A stretch of 64,000 nucleotides of DNA, taken from Lacinutrix neustonica (GTDB lineage: Bacteria; Bacteroidota; Bacteroidia; Flavobacteriales; Flavobacteriaceae). Where the stretch lies: the NCBI RefSeq assembly GCF_026625145.1, contig NZ_CP113088.1:3017501-3081500 (forward strand). The letters run 5' to 3'. The notes beneath the pieces were generated by a model. It had not been told where the DNA came from, did not search any database, and was given only the letters and a program-made list of their open reading frames with translations. The translations under genes and the position numbers were made by a program. Positions 8,105 to 16,175 of this stretch are shown here, in pieces (the first letter of the stretch is position 1; each line of letters opens with the position of its first letter).

Positions 8105-8999
8105 TGACGGCAGAAAAAGGAATTTTAAGTCAAGTAGGGAATACACCTTTAATTGAATCGGTTAATTTAGTTGCTAAAAAGGGCGTGAAGTTGCTTTTAA
8201 AACTAGAAGGAAATAATCCCGGAGGAAGTGTTAAGGACCGTCCGGCATACAATATGATTGCTGAAGCGGTGAAGCGTGGCGATATAAAAAGAGGCGGGCA
8301 TTTGGTGGAGGCGACGAGTGGTAACACAGGGATTGCTTTGGCCTATGTTGCTCGTTTATTCGGTTTAAACATTTCTTTGATTATGCCGAGAGAATTCTAC
8401 TGAAGAACGCGTTAAAACCATGCGGGCTTATGGTGCAGAGGTGATTTTAACATCATCAAATGAAGGGATAGAAGGTTCACGGGACCTCGCCTTTAAAATG
8501 AGGGATGACAAAGGGTATTTACTATTAAACCAGTTTGAGAATGAGGACAACTGGAAAGCCCATTATAAAACTACGGGGCCGAGAGATTTGGCGAGATACC
8601 AACGGGGCAGTGACTCATTTTGTTTCCGCAATGGGAACCACAGGCACAATAATGGGAACCTCTACTTTTTTGAAAGAAAAAAACAAGTCCATTAGAATTG
8701 TTGGCGCACAACCGGAAGACGGCTCTAGTATTCCGGGCATTAGAAAATGGTCGCCGGAGTATGTGCCTAAAATTTTTAATCCTTCAAAGGTCGATCAAAT
8801 TATAGAAGTTAGTGAGGCCGAAGCTAAAAAAATGACTCAAAGGCTAGCTAGAGAAGAAGGTGTTTTTGCAGGGATGAGTAGTGGAGGCTGTATTGCGAGT
8901 GCTTTAAAGCTTATTGAAACTATAGAAAAAGGTGTAGTTGTAGCCATAATTTGCGACCGAGGCGATCGGTATTTGTCATCCGATCTATTTGATTGGTAA
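8104..8999 (+). CDS. cysM: Cysteine synthase, CysM/CysK family (frameshifted twice)
   Basis: This PLP enzyme replaces the acetyl group of O-acetylserine with sulfide (or thiosulfate) to make cysteine. The PLP lysine motif GGSVKDRPA is near residue 42, SGNTGIALAY near residue 70 and GTTGTIMGT mid-protein. The C-terminus ICDRGDRYLSSDLF is typical of CysM. The corrected length is 297 aa. Two insertions of one A break it, at 8386-8391 and 8579-8585; both read CCGAGAG where CCGGAG is expected, and the three frames joined give a continuous family-like protein. It is the last gene of the sulfate-to-cysteine island. CysK is the alternative name; the shorter length and C-terminus favour CysM. Confidence 0.88.
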
Positions 9000-10967: not shown

Positions 10968-11862
10968 TTAAGTTGTCAAATCCCTAAACATACTCTCTAA
11001 ACTAGCGTTTTTTTGATTCAGTTGTAAGATTTTTAATTCATTATCATGAGCAAAATCAAACACATGAGAGCGCATATCTTCTTGGGTTGAAAACGTAATC
11101 TCATAGATAAAGTCATGGGTGTTCTTAACACTTTTAGTATGCGGTAATTTGTGTAAAAAAGCATCTTCTACACGATAATCAAATTCGACAATTACAATTT
11201 GTTCCTGTCCGTCACGGAGCTCTTTCAGTTTCTTATTGGCTACGATCTCACCTTTGTTGATGATAATTACGCGATCACACATCGCTTCAACCTCTTGCAT
11301 AATGTGTGTAGAAAGAAAGACGGTCTTTTCTTTACCTATGGATTTTATTAAATTTCTAATATCTACTAATTGATTTGGATCTAAGCCTGTAGTGGGTTCG
11401 TCAAGAATTAAAACGTCAGGATTATGCAATAAAGCATTGGCCAAACCCACCCGTTGTCTGTAACCTTTAGATAGCTGACCAATTTTTTTGTGAGACTCAG
11501 AAGTTAATCCAGTCAATGCAATTACTTCTTCAATCCGGGATTGACTTACCTTAAAAATTTGAGCATTAAATGCTAAATATTCACGAACATATTGCTCAAG
11601 GTATAAGGGGTTATGTTCTGGTAAATACCCAACACTTCTCTGAACTTGCTTGGTTTCTGTGCTTATAGAAAAATTATTTACTTGAGCTTCACCTGTAGTC
11701 GGCTTTATAAAAGTGGTTAAAATTTTCATCATCGTAGATTTCCCAGCACCATTTGGTCCTAAGAAACCAACAATCTCTCGGATTTTTTATTTCAAAAGAG
11801 ATATTGTTCAAGGCTTTTTGTGCGCCGTAACTCTTCGATATGTTTTCAACTTTTATAGACAT
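10968..11862 (-). CDS. gldA: Gliding motility ABC transporter ATP-binding protein (frameshifted)
   Basis: GldA is the ATPase of the GldA-GldF-GldG ABC transporter required for gliding in flavobacteria. The sequence shows the Walker A motif GPNGAGKST near residue 36, the ABC signature LSKGYRQR near residue 135 and Walker B VLILDEPTTGLDPNQL near residue 155. The C-terminal NASLESMFRDLT also resembles GldA. The start is taken at 11862 (MSIKVENISKSYG), the usual GldA N-terminus. The corrected length is 297 aa. One base is inserted at 11775-11781; on the coding strand CCGAGAG stands where CCGGAG is expected, just before Walker A. gldF and gldG are not in the window, consistent with gldA lying apart from them in many flavobacteria. 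Confidence 0.86.
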
Positions 11863-11964
11863 CTTGAATTCTTTCTTCAAAAATAAACATTCTGTAATTT
11901 AAATTAAGGTTTGTAGGTAAATCTTTAAATCTTCCAGTAAAACACTAAAAATTAGTCTTTAGTG

Positions 11965-11995
11965 TTTTGTTATATCGAAATATTATTTACTTTAG
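11965..11995 (+). promoter_or_regulatory. Probable promoter of the aromatic leader
   Basis: TTTTG at 11965-11969 (-33 region) is followed after 18 bases by TACTTTAG at 11988-11995, one base off the Bacteroidota -7 consensus. Transcription would start just before the leader peptide ATG at 12010. Confidence 0.5.
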
Positions 11996-12009
11996 CACAG
12001 TATTACATT

Positions 12010-12087
12010 ATGAAAATAGCAAACAACACATATTATAGCTGGTTTTATTTCTTTTTTAACAAAGAGATCGAGACGCTATATATGTAA
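12010..12087 (+). CDS. Tyr/Trp/Phe-rich leader peptide of the aromatic operon
   Basis: This is a 25-codon reading frame with a dense run of aromatic codons in the middle: Tyr-Tyr-Ser-Trp-Phe-Tyr-Phe-Phe-Phe (12031-12057), and a further Tyr before the stop. It lies directly upstream of a terminator and the genes for phenylalanine, tyrosine and common aromatic synthesis. This arrangement is the hallmark of transcription attenuation, in which ribosome stalling at scarce charged Tyr/Trp/Phe tRNA allows an antiterminator to form. The leader overlaps the proposed antiterminator arm ATCGAGAC at 12067-12074. It is too short for standard gene calling. The function is inferred from composition and structure. 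Confidence 0.75.
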   Translation: MKIANNTYYSWFYFFFNKEIETLYM

Positions 12088-12141
12088 TTAAAAAACATAT
12101 ATTTAAAACCAAGTCTCGATAATTATATCGGGACTTTTTTT
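12064..12141 (+). promoter_or_regulatory. Attenuator: antiterminator and terminator alternatives
   Basis: The arm GTCTCGAT (12113-12120) can pair either with ATCGAGAC at 12067-12074, inside the leader reading frame (antiterminator), or with the downstream ATCGGGAC (terminator). The terminator stem pairs 12111-12121 with 12126-12136, 11 pairs including one G-T wobble, around an ATTA loop and followed by a T tract to 12141. A further small hairpin (TATATATGT / ACATATATT) lies between. Mutually exclusive structures plus an aromatic-rich leader peptide support attenuation control of the genes from 12220 on. Confidence 0.75.
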
Positions 12142-12219
12142 ATACCTAAAATGTAATCTTTTCAGATTAAAATAAGTAATAGACTCTAATGTAAGTTAGG
12201 GTAAATAATACAAAAAAAC

Positions 12220-13047
12220 TTGAAAAAATTAGTAGCTATACAGGGCGTTAAAGGATCATTTCACCATATTGTGTCGCAAGATTATTTTGGAGAAAACACG
12301 ACGGTAGACGAATGTTTGTCGTTTGATGATACTGTAGAGGCGCTTTTAAGTGGTAAAACAGAAGCAGCTATTATGGCTTTAGAGAACTCTATAGCGGGTT
12401 CCATTATTCCAAACTATGCGTTGATTGACAATAATAATCTTCACATTGTTGGCGAGCATTATTTAGACATCCAGCACCATTTAATGGCCTTACCAAACCA
12501 AGGTATTGAAGCCATAAAAGAAGTGCATTCGCATCCTATGGCTTTATTGCAGTGTAAAACATTTTTTAAAGCCTATCCTCATATTAAGTTGGTAGAAGAT
12601 AAAGATACCGCTGAAGTTGCCAAACGTATTAGCGAGCAAAATATAAAAGGTATTGCAGCAATAGCTAGTCGGTTGGCATCGAAACTATTTAATTTGACAA
12701 TTCTTGCAGAGAGTATTCAAACTATAAAACATAACGAAACACGTTTCGCAATACTGAAACGCCGCAATTCTGAAATACCAAAAGCGGAGATTAATAAAGC
12801 GTCAATAAAATTTGAACTCGATCACAAACGTGGCAGTTTAGCGACCATTTTGAATGTGATGAGTGATTGTAAGCTCAATTTAACTAAGATACAATCACTA
12901 CCAAAAATTGAAACCCCTTGGTTGTACGCTTTTTTCGTAGATGTCACTTTCGAAAACCATTTAGATTTTGAAAAAGCGACCTCTATAATGCACATTATGG
13001 CGACACAATTTAAAATATTAGGAGAATATAAAAACGCAAAAAACTAA
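12220..13047 (+). CDS. pheA: Prephenate dehydratase
   Basis: This enzyme converts prephenate to phenylpyruvate, the committed step of phenylalanine synthesis. The N-terminal ~185 residues form the periplasmic-binding-like catalytic domain with the NETRF motif near residue 170. A C-terminal ACT regulatory domain starts near residue 195 (HKRGSLATILNVM), probably sensing phenylalanine. It has no fused chorismate mutase; that activity is on the DAHP synthase encoded downstream. The 275-aa frame starts at a TTG, which I accept because no ATG fits and the sequence matches the family from that point. The stop TAATGG overlaps the next start, so the operon is coupled. The leader attenuator at 12010-12141 should control it. 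Confidence 0.9.
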   Translation: MKKLVAIQGVKGSFHHIVSQDYFGENTTVDECLSFDDTVEALLSGKTEAAIMALENSIAGSIIPNYALIDNNNLHIVGEHYLDIQHHLMALPNQGIEAIKEVHSHPMALLQCKTFFKAYPHIKLVEDKDTAEVAKRISEQNIKGIAAIASRLASKLFNLTILAESIQTIKHNETRFAILKRRNSEIPKAEINKASIKFELDHKRGSLATILNVMSDCKLNLTKIQSLPKIETPWLYAFFVDVTFENHLDFEKATSIMHIMATQFKILGEYKNAKN

Positions 13048-14187
13048 TGGAAGTTTCAAAGCGATTACATAGCGTTGAAGAATACTACTTTTCAAAAAAG
13101 CTGAAGGAAGTAAATGTGCTAAAAGCCAGTGGTAAACCTATTATTAATTTAGGTATTGGTAGTCCGGATTTACAACCACCAGAAAAGGTGATTAAAGCTA
13201 TTACTGATAGTTTTAAGGATGAGAATGCGCATAAGTACCAAAGTTATCAGGGGTTGCCTGAGCTACGTGACGCCATTTACGGGTTTTACCGTAGACATTT
13301 TAATGTTTTTGTAAATAGGGATACAGAAGTTTTACCTTTAATGGGAAGCAAAGAAGGCATCCTGCATATTTCTATGGCTTTTTTAAATGCCGGTGATGAA
13401 GTTTTGATTCCTAACCCAGGCTACCCCACCTATACTTCAGTAACCAAGTTGTTACATGCCAAACCTGTATTTTATAATTTAGCAGCGCATAATAACTGGT
13501 GTCCGAGATATAAATGCATTAGAAAAACTGGATTTAAGTAACGTTAAGATGATGTGGTTGAGTTACCCACATATGCCAACCGGCGCGCAGGCCACTGAGG
13601 AGACCTTTAAATCCCTGATAGCTTTTGCAAAACGCCACCATATTTTATTGGTAAATGACAATCCGTATAGTTTTGTTTTAAATAAAAACCCACTGAGTAT
13701 CTTGAGTGTCGAAGGTGCCAAAGACGTTTGTTTAGAGCTAAATTCATTAAGTAAAACCTTTAATATGGCTGGGTGGCGCGTAGGCATGGTTTTGGGAAAA
13801 TCAACGTTTTTAGAAGCGATTCTTAAAGTGAAAAGCAATATGGATTACGGAATGTTTTACGGCATACAAAAAGGGGCGATTGCAGCCTTAAACTGCTCAA
13901 ATTTTTGGTTTGCCAGTTTGAACAGTGTCTATGAACAACGCCGCAGCTTGGTTTGGGAATTAGCAACACGCCTTAATTGCACTTATGATAGGGATACCGT
14001 AGGGTTATTTGTATGGGCAAAATTGCCCCCTTCTATTAAATCGGAAGCATTTATAGATAAATTATTAAAAGAAAATCACATTTTCATTACACCAGGAACT
14101 GTGTTTGGCTCACAAGGAGAAGGGTATGTACGTTTTTCTCTATGTGCAACAAACGAGGTTATTGAAGAAGCAATCTCAAGAGTATGA
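13047..14187 (+). CDS. Aromatic-operon aminotransferase, class I/II PLP (frameshifted)
   Basis: This fold-type I aminotransferase probably transaminates phenylpyruvate and 4-hydroxyphenylpyruvate to Phe and Tyr, judged by its operon position. The N-terminus has NLGIGSPDLQPP and SYQGLPELRDAI; the PLP lysine motif is SLSKTFNMAGWRVG mid-protein, and the C-terminus has VRFSLCA with the substrate-carboxylate arginine. The corrected length is about 379 aa. One A is inserted at 13503-13509 (CCGAGAT where CCGGAT is expected); the following frame continues DINALEKLDLS. The start overlaps the pheA stop by one base and the stop overlaps tyrA by 4 bases. LL-diaminopimelate aminotransferases are relatives, so substrate specificity is inferred. 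Confidence 0.85.
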
Positions 14188-15038
14188 TTAATAAAATATA
14201 TGTCATTGGTGTAGGATTAATAGGGGGCAGTTTGGCTATAGACATTAAAGCGAAACGACCCGATGCGACTATTTTTGGATTGGATCATTTAGAAGAAAAC
14301 CTCACGACCGCCTTGGAATTAGGTGTGATTGATGAAAAAGCAGTTTTTGAAGATTTAGACAACGCCGATTTAGTGATTTTAGCCATTCCGGTAGATGCCA
14401 CGGTCGTTCTTTTGTCAAGAGTGCTTGATGCAGTTTCAGATTTTGGTTTAGTCGTCGATGTGGGTTCAACTAAAAAAGACATTTGTAAAGCGGTTGAAAC
14501 GCATCCTAAACGACGAAATTTTTTGGCCATGCATCCCATCGCAGGGACCGAATTTTCAGGGCCTAAGGCGGCCATTCCTAATTTGTTTCAGCACAAAACC
14601 AATATCATTTGTGAAGTGGAAAAAACAGCTTTCAAATTACAGGAGAAAGCCTTAAATCTTTTCGCAGAACTTGGTATGCGAATGCGTTACATGAACCCGG
14701 AATCTCACGACAAGCACATCGCATATATGTCACATTTATCGCACATTAGCGCTTTTATGCTAGGTAAAACGGTGATTGAAAAAGAAAAAAACGAACGTGA
14801 TATTTTCGATATGGCAGGCTCTGGTTTTGAAAGTACTGTGCGTTTGGCAAAAAGTTCACCTGCCATGTGGACGCCCATTTTTAAACAGAATAAAGACAAC
14901 GTTATTGAAACGTTGGAGGATTATATTAAGAACCTCTCACAATTTAAAGCACTCCTAGAGAATGATGATTTTGAAGGTGTTTTTAATGAAATGAAAGACA
15001 CCAATTACATTAAACAAATATTAAACGGAATACAATAA
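14184..15038 (+). CDS. tyrA: Prephenate dehydrogenase
   Basis: TyrA oxidatively decarboxylates prephenate to 4-hydroxyphenylpyruvate for tyrosine synthesis using NAD(P). The 284-aa intact protein opens with the Rossmann motif IYVIGVGLIGGSLA. It continues with VVDVGSTKKDI near residue 92 and the catalytic-site signature MHPIAGTEFSGP near residue 113; His-rich SHLSHI near residue 185 lies in the helical dimer domain. There is no C-terminal ACT domain. The start overlaps the aminotransferase stop (ATGA). The gene is followed after 53 bases by the DAHP synthase gene, so the four genes make one aromatic operon. Confidence 0.92.
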   Translation: MINKIYVIGVGLIGGSLAIDIKAKRPDATIFGLDHLEENLTTALELGVIDEKAVFEDLDNADLVILAIPVDATVVLLSRVLDAVSDFGLVVDVGSTKKDICKAVETHPKRRNFLAMHPIAGTEFSGPKAAIPNLFQHKTNIICEVEKTAFKLQEKALNLFAELGMRMRYMNPESHDKHIAYMSHLSHISAFMLGKTVIEKEKNERDIFDMAGSGFESTVRLAKSSPAMWTPIFKQNKDNVIETLEDYIKNLSQFKALLENDDFEGVFNEMKDTNYIKQILNGIQ

Positions 15039-15091: not shown

Positions 15092-16175
15092 ATGGAAAAT
15101 AAAAAAGAAATGAGAAACTGGTTGGATGCTATGAATTTAGAGCATCCATTAGTCATTGCTGGGCCTTGTAGTGCTGAGACAGAAGAACAAGTGTTGAGGA
15201 TAGCGCATGAGCTAAAAGATACAGATGTAAGTTATTTTAGAGCTGGGATTTGGAAGCCTAGAACGCGTCCAGGCATGTTTGAAGGTGTTGGAGCTTTAGG
15301 TTTGAACTGGCTTAAGAAAGTAAAGGCTGAAACTGGAATGAAAACCTGTACGGAGGTGGCCAATGCAGCCCATGTTAAACTGGCCATAGAAAATGATGTC
15401 GATTTACTTTGGATTGGAGCGCGCTCAACCGTGAGTCCATTTATTATGCAGGAATTAGCAGATGCTTTAGCGGGAACAGATAAAATTGTACTGGTTAAAA
15501 ATCCAGTAAATCCAGATTTAGCATTATGGTTAGGTGGTATTGAACGCTTATATACTGCGGGCATTAAAAATTTAGGGGCGATACATAGGGGGTTTTCAAC
15601 CTACGAAAAAACCAAGTATAGAAACATTCCGAGAATGGCAAATAGCCATCGAATTCCAAAATAGATTTCCCGATTTACCGTTAATTAATGATCCGTCACA
15701 CATTACAGGAAAACGCGATATGGTTTTTGACGTGTCTCAAACAGCCTTAGATCTTAATTTTGATGGCTTGATGGTAGAAACGCATTTCGATCCGGATAAT
15801 GCGTGGAGTGATGCCGCGCAACAAGTGACTCCAGCAACTTTGATCCAAATGATGAAGGATTTAAAAATTAGAAAAGAAAGTGACCCGGAAGCAGAATATA
15901 ATAGTGAGCTAGCTAACTTAAGAGCCCAAATAGACGTTGTAGATAATCAAGTGATTGAATTATTAGGCAAGCGTATGAAAGTTGCAGACGGTATTGGAGC
16001 CCTTAAAAAAGAGAAAAACGTGGCCGTTTTACAAAGTAAACGATGGAATGAAATTTTGGGTAAAATGGTGTTAGAAGGAGAAACCAAGGGATTGAGTGAA
16101 GAGTTTATTTTAAAATTGTTTAAAGCCATTCACCAAGAGTCTATTAATCATCAGGAAAAGGTGATAAAAGGCTAA
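15092..16175 (+). CDS. Bifunctional DAHP synthase / chorismate mutase (frameshifted)
   Basis: The N-terminal ~260 residues are a type I-beta 3-deoxy-7-phosphoheptulonate synthase with VIAGPCSAET near residue 20, RAGIWKPRTRPG near residue 50 and LWIGARSTVSPF. The C-terminal ~90 residues form an AroQ-type chorismate mutase (LRAQIDVVDNQVIELLGKRM). It makes the first shikimate-pathway intermediate and converts chorismate to prephenate, the substrate of the two upstream enzymes. In relatives, the mutase domain lets prephenate or chorismate inhibit the synthase. The corrected length is 360 aa, normal for the fusion. One A is inserted at 15629-15635 (CCGAGAA where CCGGAA is expected). A strong terminator follows. 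Confidence 0.9.

Follow-up and report, generated by a model that had tools for sequence, protein, structure and literature searches.

The leader peptide PheL of enteric bacteria reads phenylalanine only, but reading of a single residue is not a general property of enteric leaders, as the thr and ilv leaders illustrate; the contrast with single-residue enteric leaders drawn in the original prediction for the element analyzed here thus holds for some of them only. For the Bacteroidetes/Chlorobi group, some attenuators were reportedly predicted by Vitreschak et al. in 2004. Published accounts of related systems comprise the pheA attenuator operon of Escherichia coli and Salmonella (PMC1183508), the Bacteroid-trp leader, Rfam family RF01692 (PMC2864571), and a mention of leader-like open reading frames (ORFs) in Bacteroides thetaiotaomicron (PMC7366714). 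For Flavobacterium psychrophilum, 64 structured 5′ regions have been listed, among which the pheA and hisG elements are conserved in Flavobacteriaceae and have no Rfam match, and strong clues for leader-peptide attenuation were reported upstream of amino acid operons (PMC9723704); the section of that study that names the pheA element does not describe it as a leader peptide and gives no residues. Among the publications listed, judged by title and abstract opening, none deals with a pheA leader peptide of the Phe/Tyr/Trp kind in Bacteroidota, the nearest being PMC9723704. In view of the F. psychrophilum study and RF01692, the claim that attenuation is little documented in Bacteroidota has to be toned down: this kind of attenuator is already known, also in this phylum, and the general novelty is modest. 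The present analysis adds the mix of residues, the evidence of covariation, and the taxonomic reach of the pheA leader.

The locus compared with these systems lies in a stretch of 64,000 nucleotides of Lacinutrix neustonica DNA, which was analyzed as a whole and is referred to as the window. The element in front of its prephenate dehydratase gene is very probably a classical ribosome-mediated transcription attenuator of the trpL/pheL/hisL type. The sequence shows the parts of the element, how they are conserved and covary, the bias in codon choice, and the spacing; we infer where transcription starts, that the ORF is translated, that the ribosome stalls, how the operon responds to amino acids, and that Trp plays a role. 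The features of the locus are as follows.

10968-11732, minus strand: ABC transporter ATPase gene, left neighbor, on the strand opposite to the leader
11966-11995, plus strand: putative Bacteroidetes-type promoter with TTTG (11966-11969), 18 nt, and TACTTTAG (11988-11995), one base off the consensus (direct reading)
12010-12087, plus strand: leader-peptide ORF MKIANNTYYSWFYFFFNKEIETLYM, ATG at 12010, TAA at 12087, 25 codons plus stop (direct reading)
12028-12085, plus strand: 1:2 hairpin (protector or pause hairpin), aromatic codons paired with the region 2 side (minimum free energy [MFE] fold)
12031-12057, plus strand: control codons Tyr-Tyr-Ser-Trp-Phe-Tyr-Phe-Phe-Phe (direct reading)
12067-12074, plus strand: region 2, left arm of the antiterminator, ATCGAGAC, inside the leader frame and covarying with region 3
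12111-12120, plus strand: region 3, AAGTCTCGAT, common to antiterminator and terminator (terminator scan, swap test, covariation)
12121-12126, plus strand: terminator loop, between AAGTCTCGAT and ATCGGGACTT
12127-12141, plus strand: region 4, ATCGGGACTT (12127-12136), followed by a T run to 12141, completing an intrinsic terminator (terminator scan)
12220-13047, plus strand: prephenate dehydratase gene (pheA), TTG start (Pfam PDT, 4e-54)
13047-14187, plus strand: class I/II aminotransferase gene, split in two frames (Pfam Aminotran_1_2 in both pieces)
14184-15038, plus strand: prephenate dehydrogenase gene (tyrA) (NCBIfam NF006307, 383 bits versus a cutoff of 295)
15092-16175, plus strand: gene for DAHP synthase with a chorismate mutase domain, split in two frames (Pfam, NCBIfam)

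With the F. psychrophilum pheA element, the window leader has in common the gene name, the bacterial family, the conservation, and the lack of an Rfam match (PMC9723704). With pheL of E. coli and Salmonella it would share the mechanism, and the first enzyme of the operon has the same activity; in contrast to pheL, codons for Tyr and often for Trp occur beside those for Phe, and tyrA and the DAHP synthase gene also belong to the operon. RF01692 likewise represents leader attenuators of this phylum, and the window genome has a leader of the RF01692 type before trpE, but that family combines Trp codons with the trp operon, and the window pheA leader does not match its model. A search with all 4,227 Rfam families gave three matches up to an E value of 5, none of them near its gathering cutoff; the sole leader family, Trp_leader, reached 19.6 bits versus 41, and no T-box riboswitch was matched up to an E value of 5. 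The pheA leaders of nine relatives matched no Rfam family at threshold.

The 25-codon frame with its aromatic run was found as predicted originally, at 12010-12087, as was the strong terminator behind it, at 12111-12141. The latter is the sole terminator-like site in the interval 11700-12400 (0.2 expected) and ends 78 bases ahead of the TTG start at 12220. The stretch 12004-12142 folds with a z score of −5.9, and none of 200 shuffled sequences folded equally well; its MFE structure contains the terminator and, as a second hairpin, the pairing of the aromatic codons with the ATCGAGAC-bearing stretch at 12028-12085. The Phe and Tyr genes ascribed to the downstream operon were borne out by Pfam and NCBIfam, with the DAHP synthase gene as an addition to the original list. 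No second DAHP synthase was found in the genome: the other PF00793 match is a KDO8P synthase, and PF01474 has no match. The genome is rated 84% complete, so that the absence of a further DAHP synthase is not certain. The frames within the window are split at 13541/13549 in the aminotransferase gene, at 15664/15720 in the DAHP synthase-chorismate mutase gene, and at 8403/8420 in a gene resembling cysteine synthase by eye; elsewhere in the genome, hisG is split and trpE is short. These frame splits are likely sequencing indels.

An aromatic leader in front of genes for aromatic amino acids most likely means that the operon is on when the cell is short of these amino acids. Specifically, transcription would begin just ahead of the leader ORF. 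If charged Phe-, Tyr-, or Trp-tRNA were scarce, the ribosome would stall in the aromatic run (12031-12057) and cover region 1, leaving region 2 (12067-12074) free to pair with region 3 (12111-12120); no terminator would form, and the operon would be transcribed. With an ample supply, the ribosome would reach the stop codon and cover region 2, region 3 would pair with region 4, and transcription would end near 12141. If the leader were not translated, the 1:2 hairpin would sequester region 2, resulting in termination by default. The characteristics of such an attenuator were found at the locus: a run of codons for the product of the operon within a short ORF (12010-12087), an intrinsic terminator between this ORF and the first gene, a 1:2 protector hairpin (window fold and synonymous-codon test), an antiterminator that uses the left arm of the terminator (swap test and covariation), and a spacing that, by a model with an assumed footprint, frees region 2 upon stalling and covers it at the stop codon. 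For the window leader, this model gives an antiterminator probability of 1.0 with the ribosome stalled at each control codon and of 0 at the stop codon.

The presumed promoter matches the published Bacteroidetes consensus TTTG/TANNTTTG (PMC6847099) except for one base. For the "promoter-like" sequence of the original prediction, a candidate of the Bacteroidetes type is thus present; a scan for sigma-70-type promoters gave three sites versus 3.2 in shuffled sequences, with none on the plus strand just ahead of the leader ORF. Across the 141 leaders from relatives described below, TAnnTTnG occurs within 70 nt upstream in 136 (14% in shuffled sequences) and the exact published TAnnTTTG in 25 (5.5%); the commonest form is TACTTTAG, and the commonest gap between TTG and the TAnnTTnG motif is 18 nt. 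With a start a few bases past the promoter, only about ten bases would precede the ATG of the window leader. An inverted repeat at 11940-11968 (AAACACTAAA/TTTAGTGTTT), partly kept in the genus, overlaps the −33 box of this promoter and is possibly an operator.

Conservation was assessed at 151 loci including the window, i.e., the matches to its prephenate dehydratase among 40 relatives and 149 family genomes; genome G028 (locus L392, leaderless and read separately) and a second, marginal match in genome G086 were left out. An aromatic leader ORF precedes the gene at 147 of these family and order loci. By a strict rule (ATG ORF of 8 to 45 codons, 7 or more aromatic residues in 10, no more than 400 nt upstream), a leader was detected at 141 of 150 loci, compared with 7 of 1,500 dinucleotide shuffles; a looser rule (at least 5 in 10) recovered 144 of 150, a level reached by 12% of shuffles, and reading a longer or corrected stretch added L044, L047 (at −649), and L130 (at −457). 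The four loci with no aromatic leader ORF are L092, L101, L096 (where no more than 379 nt precede the gene), and L027 (another family); the close relatives L006, L007, L013, L015, L016, L020, L029, and L032 all have one. A terminator follows 141 of the 144 leaders by the rule of the script and is visible by eye in the other three (L032, L085, and L111). Among 80 named genomes, which include Flavobacterium, Tenacibaculum, Winogradskyella, Psychroserpens, and Kordia and overlap with the 151-locus set, 79 contain an ORF with at least 6 aromatic residues in 10, followed in 76 of them by a terminator according to the script. In one genome (L116), a Flavo-1 RNA (RF01705, 78.6 bits) lies at 494-571, upstream of the pheA leader and on the opposite strand.

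A phylum-wide search detected the prephenate dehydratase gene in 138 of 158 genomes, and 70 loci were read. By the criterion of 7 or more aromatic residues in 10, 20 of them have such an ORF: in other orders of the class it precedes the gene at 15 of 17 loci, and it also occurs in one further member of the window's family and at 4 of the remaining 52 loci. No leader was seen at the 30 loci L376 to L405, which come from other families in the phylum and from one family in the order (4 aromatic residues in 10 at best); in family f5 of the window's order, L392 and L423 have none. The leader element thus appears to be ancient in the class and to have disappeared here and there, and leader-peptide control would be widely kept in this bacterial group. 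A covariance model of the leader (R1) had one strong match in the window genome (2e-15); the next one (E value of 0.009, L290) resembles an ordinary terminator rather than a second copy. In a search of 296 genomes of the order, R1 gave 136 matches at E values of up to 0.01, a number that overstates the family, since only 2 of 20 weaker matches inspected (L277 and L283) resemble leaders of amino acid genes.

The swap, ribosome-walk, and synonymous-codon tests were performed with 140 leaders, omitting L032, L085, and L111 (terminator missed by the script) and L152 (weak stem). Region 2 is formed by the last part of the ORF or follows it directly, and in each leader it can pair with the left arm of the terminator of its own species, although the letters vary (CGAGAC-GTCTCG, CGGGAC-GTCCCG, CCGGGT-ACCCGG, and AGGACT-AGTCCT for regions 2 and 3). 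Pairing amounted to −8.1 kcal/mol with the leader's own region 3 and to −6.1 kcal/mol with those of others, and none of 2,000 permutations was as good. When each distinct arm was represented by a single sequence (30 types), the values were −8.4 and −5.7. Outside the family (18 leaders, omitting L412, which has no terminator), they were −13.7 and −11.3, with none of 5,000 permutations as good. In a plain MAFFT alignment of 50 leaders, 96% of the cells of the terminator helix pair and 8 of its 10 pairs changed on both sides; for the antiterminator helix, the corresponding figures are 73% of the cells and 6 of 8 pairs. The antiterminator helix comprises 46 cells changed on both sides, a number reached by none of 500 shuffles; overall, three of five covariation measures lay beyond all 500 shuffles, and the other two were reached by 47 and 61. 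Swap test and covariation across relatives support the proposal that AAGTCTCGAT can alternatively pair with ATCGAGAC inside the frame. The comparison with relatives suggested in the original prediction thus turned out in its favor: the short ORF, the terminator, and the alternative stem are kept and covary, and the lack of conservation of ORF and stems that it had named as contrary evidence was not encountered in these sequences.

For the synonymous-codon test, ORFs were resampled according to the codon usage of the relatives' prephenate dehydratase genes. The real ORF surpassed the mean of its resamples in 2:3 pairing for 91% of the 140 leaders and in 1:2 self-folding for 98.6%; the z score for the 1:2 fold of the window leader was −2.7. 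Glu is encoded by 88 GAG and 37 GAA codons in the leaders, compared with 285 GAG and 712 GAA in the relatives' prephenate dehydratase genes. Codon choice favors both RNA structures, and the peptide alone does not account for the letters. In the ribosome walk, 13 nt were masked from the A-site codon on, the footprint being the value from enteric bacteria, and the downstream RNA was folded to just past region 3. The mean probability of 2:3 pairing was 0.89 for 738 Phe codons, 0.81 for 495 Tyr codons, 0.90 for 100 Trp codons, 0.48 for 1,994 other codons, and 0.0 for 140 stop codons. In 125 of the 140 leaders (111 Phe and 14 Tyr), an aromatic codon stands fourth before region 2, the last position with a high mean probability (0.92); the third codon, which is Phe in 8 leaders, has a mean of 0.58, and the codon after it 0.08. 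From the last aromatic codon to region 2, the distance is 10 to 11 nt in 104 of 140 leaders. Codons far upstream of the aromatic run are permissive as well, so that the model can account for the required end of the run but not for a required beginning; as region 2 was picked by its pairing and the footprint was assumed, the walk is a consistency test and no proof.

These data also bear on two other explanations for the short ORF. The peptide might act itself, either as an arrest peptide that senses a free amino acid like TnaC or as a small membrane peptide, and the terminator would then be secondary. The peptide is indeed conserved and has a hydrophobic middle; against such a role, its length varies, Phe and Tyr interchange freely, both RNA structures restrict the choice of synonymous codons, and a terminator follows all 144 leaders, by rule or by eye, which together make a self-acting peptide very improbable. 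Even less credit can be given to an ORF that only boosts translation of the next gene by reinitiation, next to a hairpin that ends another transcript. Leader genes are thought to act in this way at short distances, with a peak at 11 to 14 bp in Bacteroidetes (PMC4833913), but the ORF ends 132 nt before the prephenate dehydratase gene, and with the upstream neighbor on the opposite strand, no other plus-strand transcript is in sight for the hairpin to end.

Within the attenuator reading, it remains to be asked which amino acids are sensed. Following the start codon, the 141 leaders contain 23% Phe, 15.5% Tyr, and 3.1% Trp; Phe and Tyr occur in all of them, and Trp occurs in 99 and is absent from 42. 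Since 42 leaders do without Trp, three-way sensing is not general, and the proposed sensor of all three amino acids would fit this species and part of the group only. An attenuator of the same type might read Phe and Tyr alone, the Trp codon being incidental or a relic; for this possibility speak, in addition to the 42 leaders, the presence of Trp in just 34 of 79 leaders from named genomes, most Flavobacterium leaders having none, and the separate Trp-Trp-Trp leader of trpE in the same genome. On the other hand, Trp is found in the larger share of the 141 leaders, it is placed differently by clade (NWFYFFF and YFWNGFYFYFFF), and its codons lie, in 96% of cases, where the model keeps the antiterminator likely. 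Moreover, the DAHP synthase of the operon, the only one found, yields a product that also feeds Trp, so that a Trp codon in the leader would make sense despite the separate trpE leader. We consider reading of Phe and Tyr alone a possible but rather doubtful solution and are inclined, with some reserve, to assume that the leader of this species senses Trp as well.

Leaders at other genes served as a natural control, and their residues match the product of the downstream gene: His with hisG, Trp with trpE, Ile with an ilvA-like gene, and Tyr with phenylalanine 4-monooxygenase. Outside the window, the same genome has a His leader (MNFIQSHHHHFHTCHQAS) before hisG (L343) and a Trp leader (MNNILNHTWWWNSRKTIRE), matching RF01692, before trpE (L353), each with a terminator. 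Among the relatives read, all 21 hisG loci had a His leader and all 22 trpE loci a Trp leader, omitting L345 (second piece of one gene) and L368 to L375 (weak matches). Of the loci cut by contig ends, L328, L336, and L364 have leaders (two his and one trp), and L295 has none; behind three Trp leaders (L355, L359, and L361), the script's rule found no terminator. Locus L277 (genome G301, a member of the family) shows at about 200-345 an Ile-rich leader (MTNLNNIIIAIISIIVILQ) and a terminator before a gene that resembles ilvA by eye.

Tyr-only leaders (YYYY or YYYYY) occur at four of eight loci of the short type of phenylalanine 4-monooxygenase, in two taxonomic families: L296 (G068, with MKNLNNTYYYYPILTRRIGQ), L446 (G578), L447 (G577), and L448 (G583). 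The identification of this enzyme rests on 246.1 bits, just below the cutoff of 247, for a 232-residue piece; the gene at L447 has an internal stop. The ORFs start 154 to 175 bases upstream of the match, terminators are present, and antiterminator pairing was obtained in the model at the Tyr codons. No Tyr leader was seen at the other four short-type loci (G016, G088, G159, and G037), and upstream of 25 long-type relatives of the enzyme, read without L299, there were never more than 5 aromatic residues in 10. In G068, the genome of L296, prephenate dehydratase had no match. In the Tyr-only case, the ribosome-mediated attenuator would be specific for tyrosine; to our knowledge, there is no earlier example of this kind. 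The chances appear about even that Bacteroidia carry a residue-matched set of aromatic attenuators, in which the pheA-operon leader reads Phe, Tyr, and Trp in many species, as DAHP synthase is also controlled, and a Tyr-only leader in some lineages governs a phenylalanine hydroxylase that makes tyrosine.

If these readings are true, leader-peptide attenuation would be a main form of amino acid control in a large group that differs from the enteric models in its promoters and translation starts, and one leader would integrate the supply of several amino acids where a branched pathway begins. A Tyr-only leader would, in addition, help to tell tyrosine-making phenylalanine hydroxylases from phenylalanine-degrading ones.
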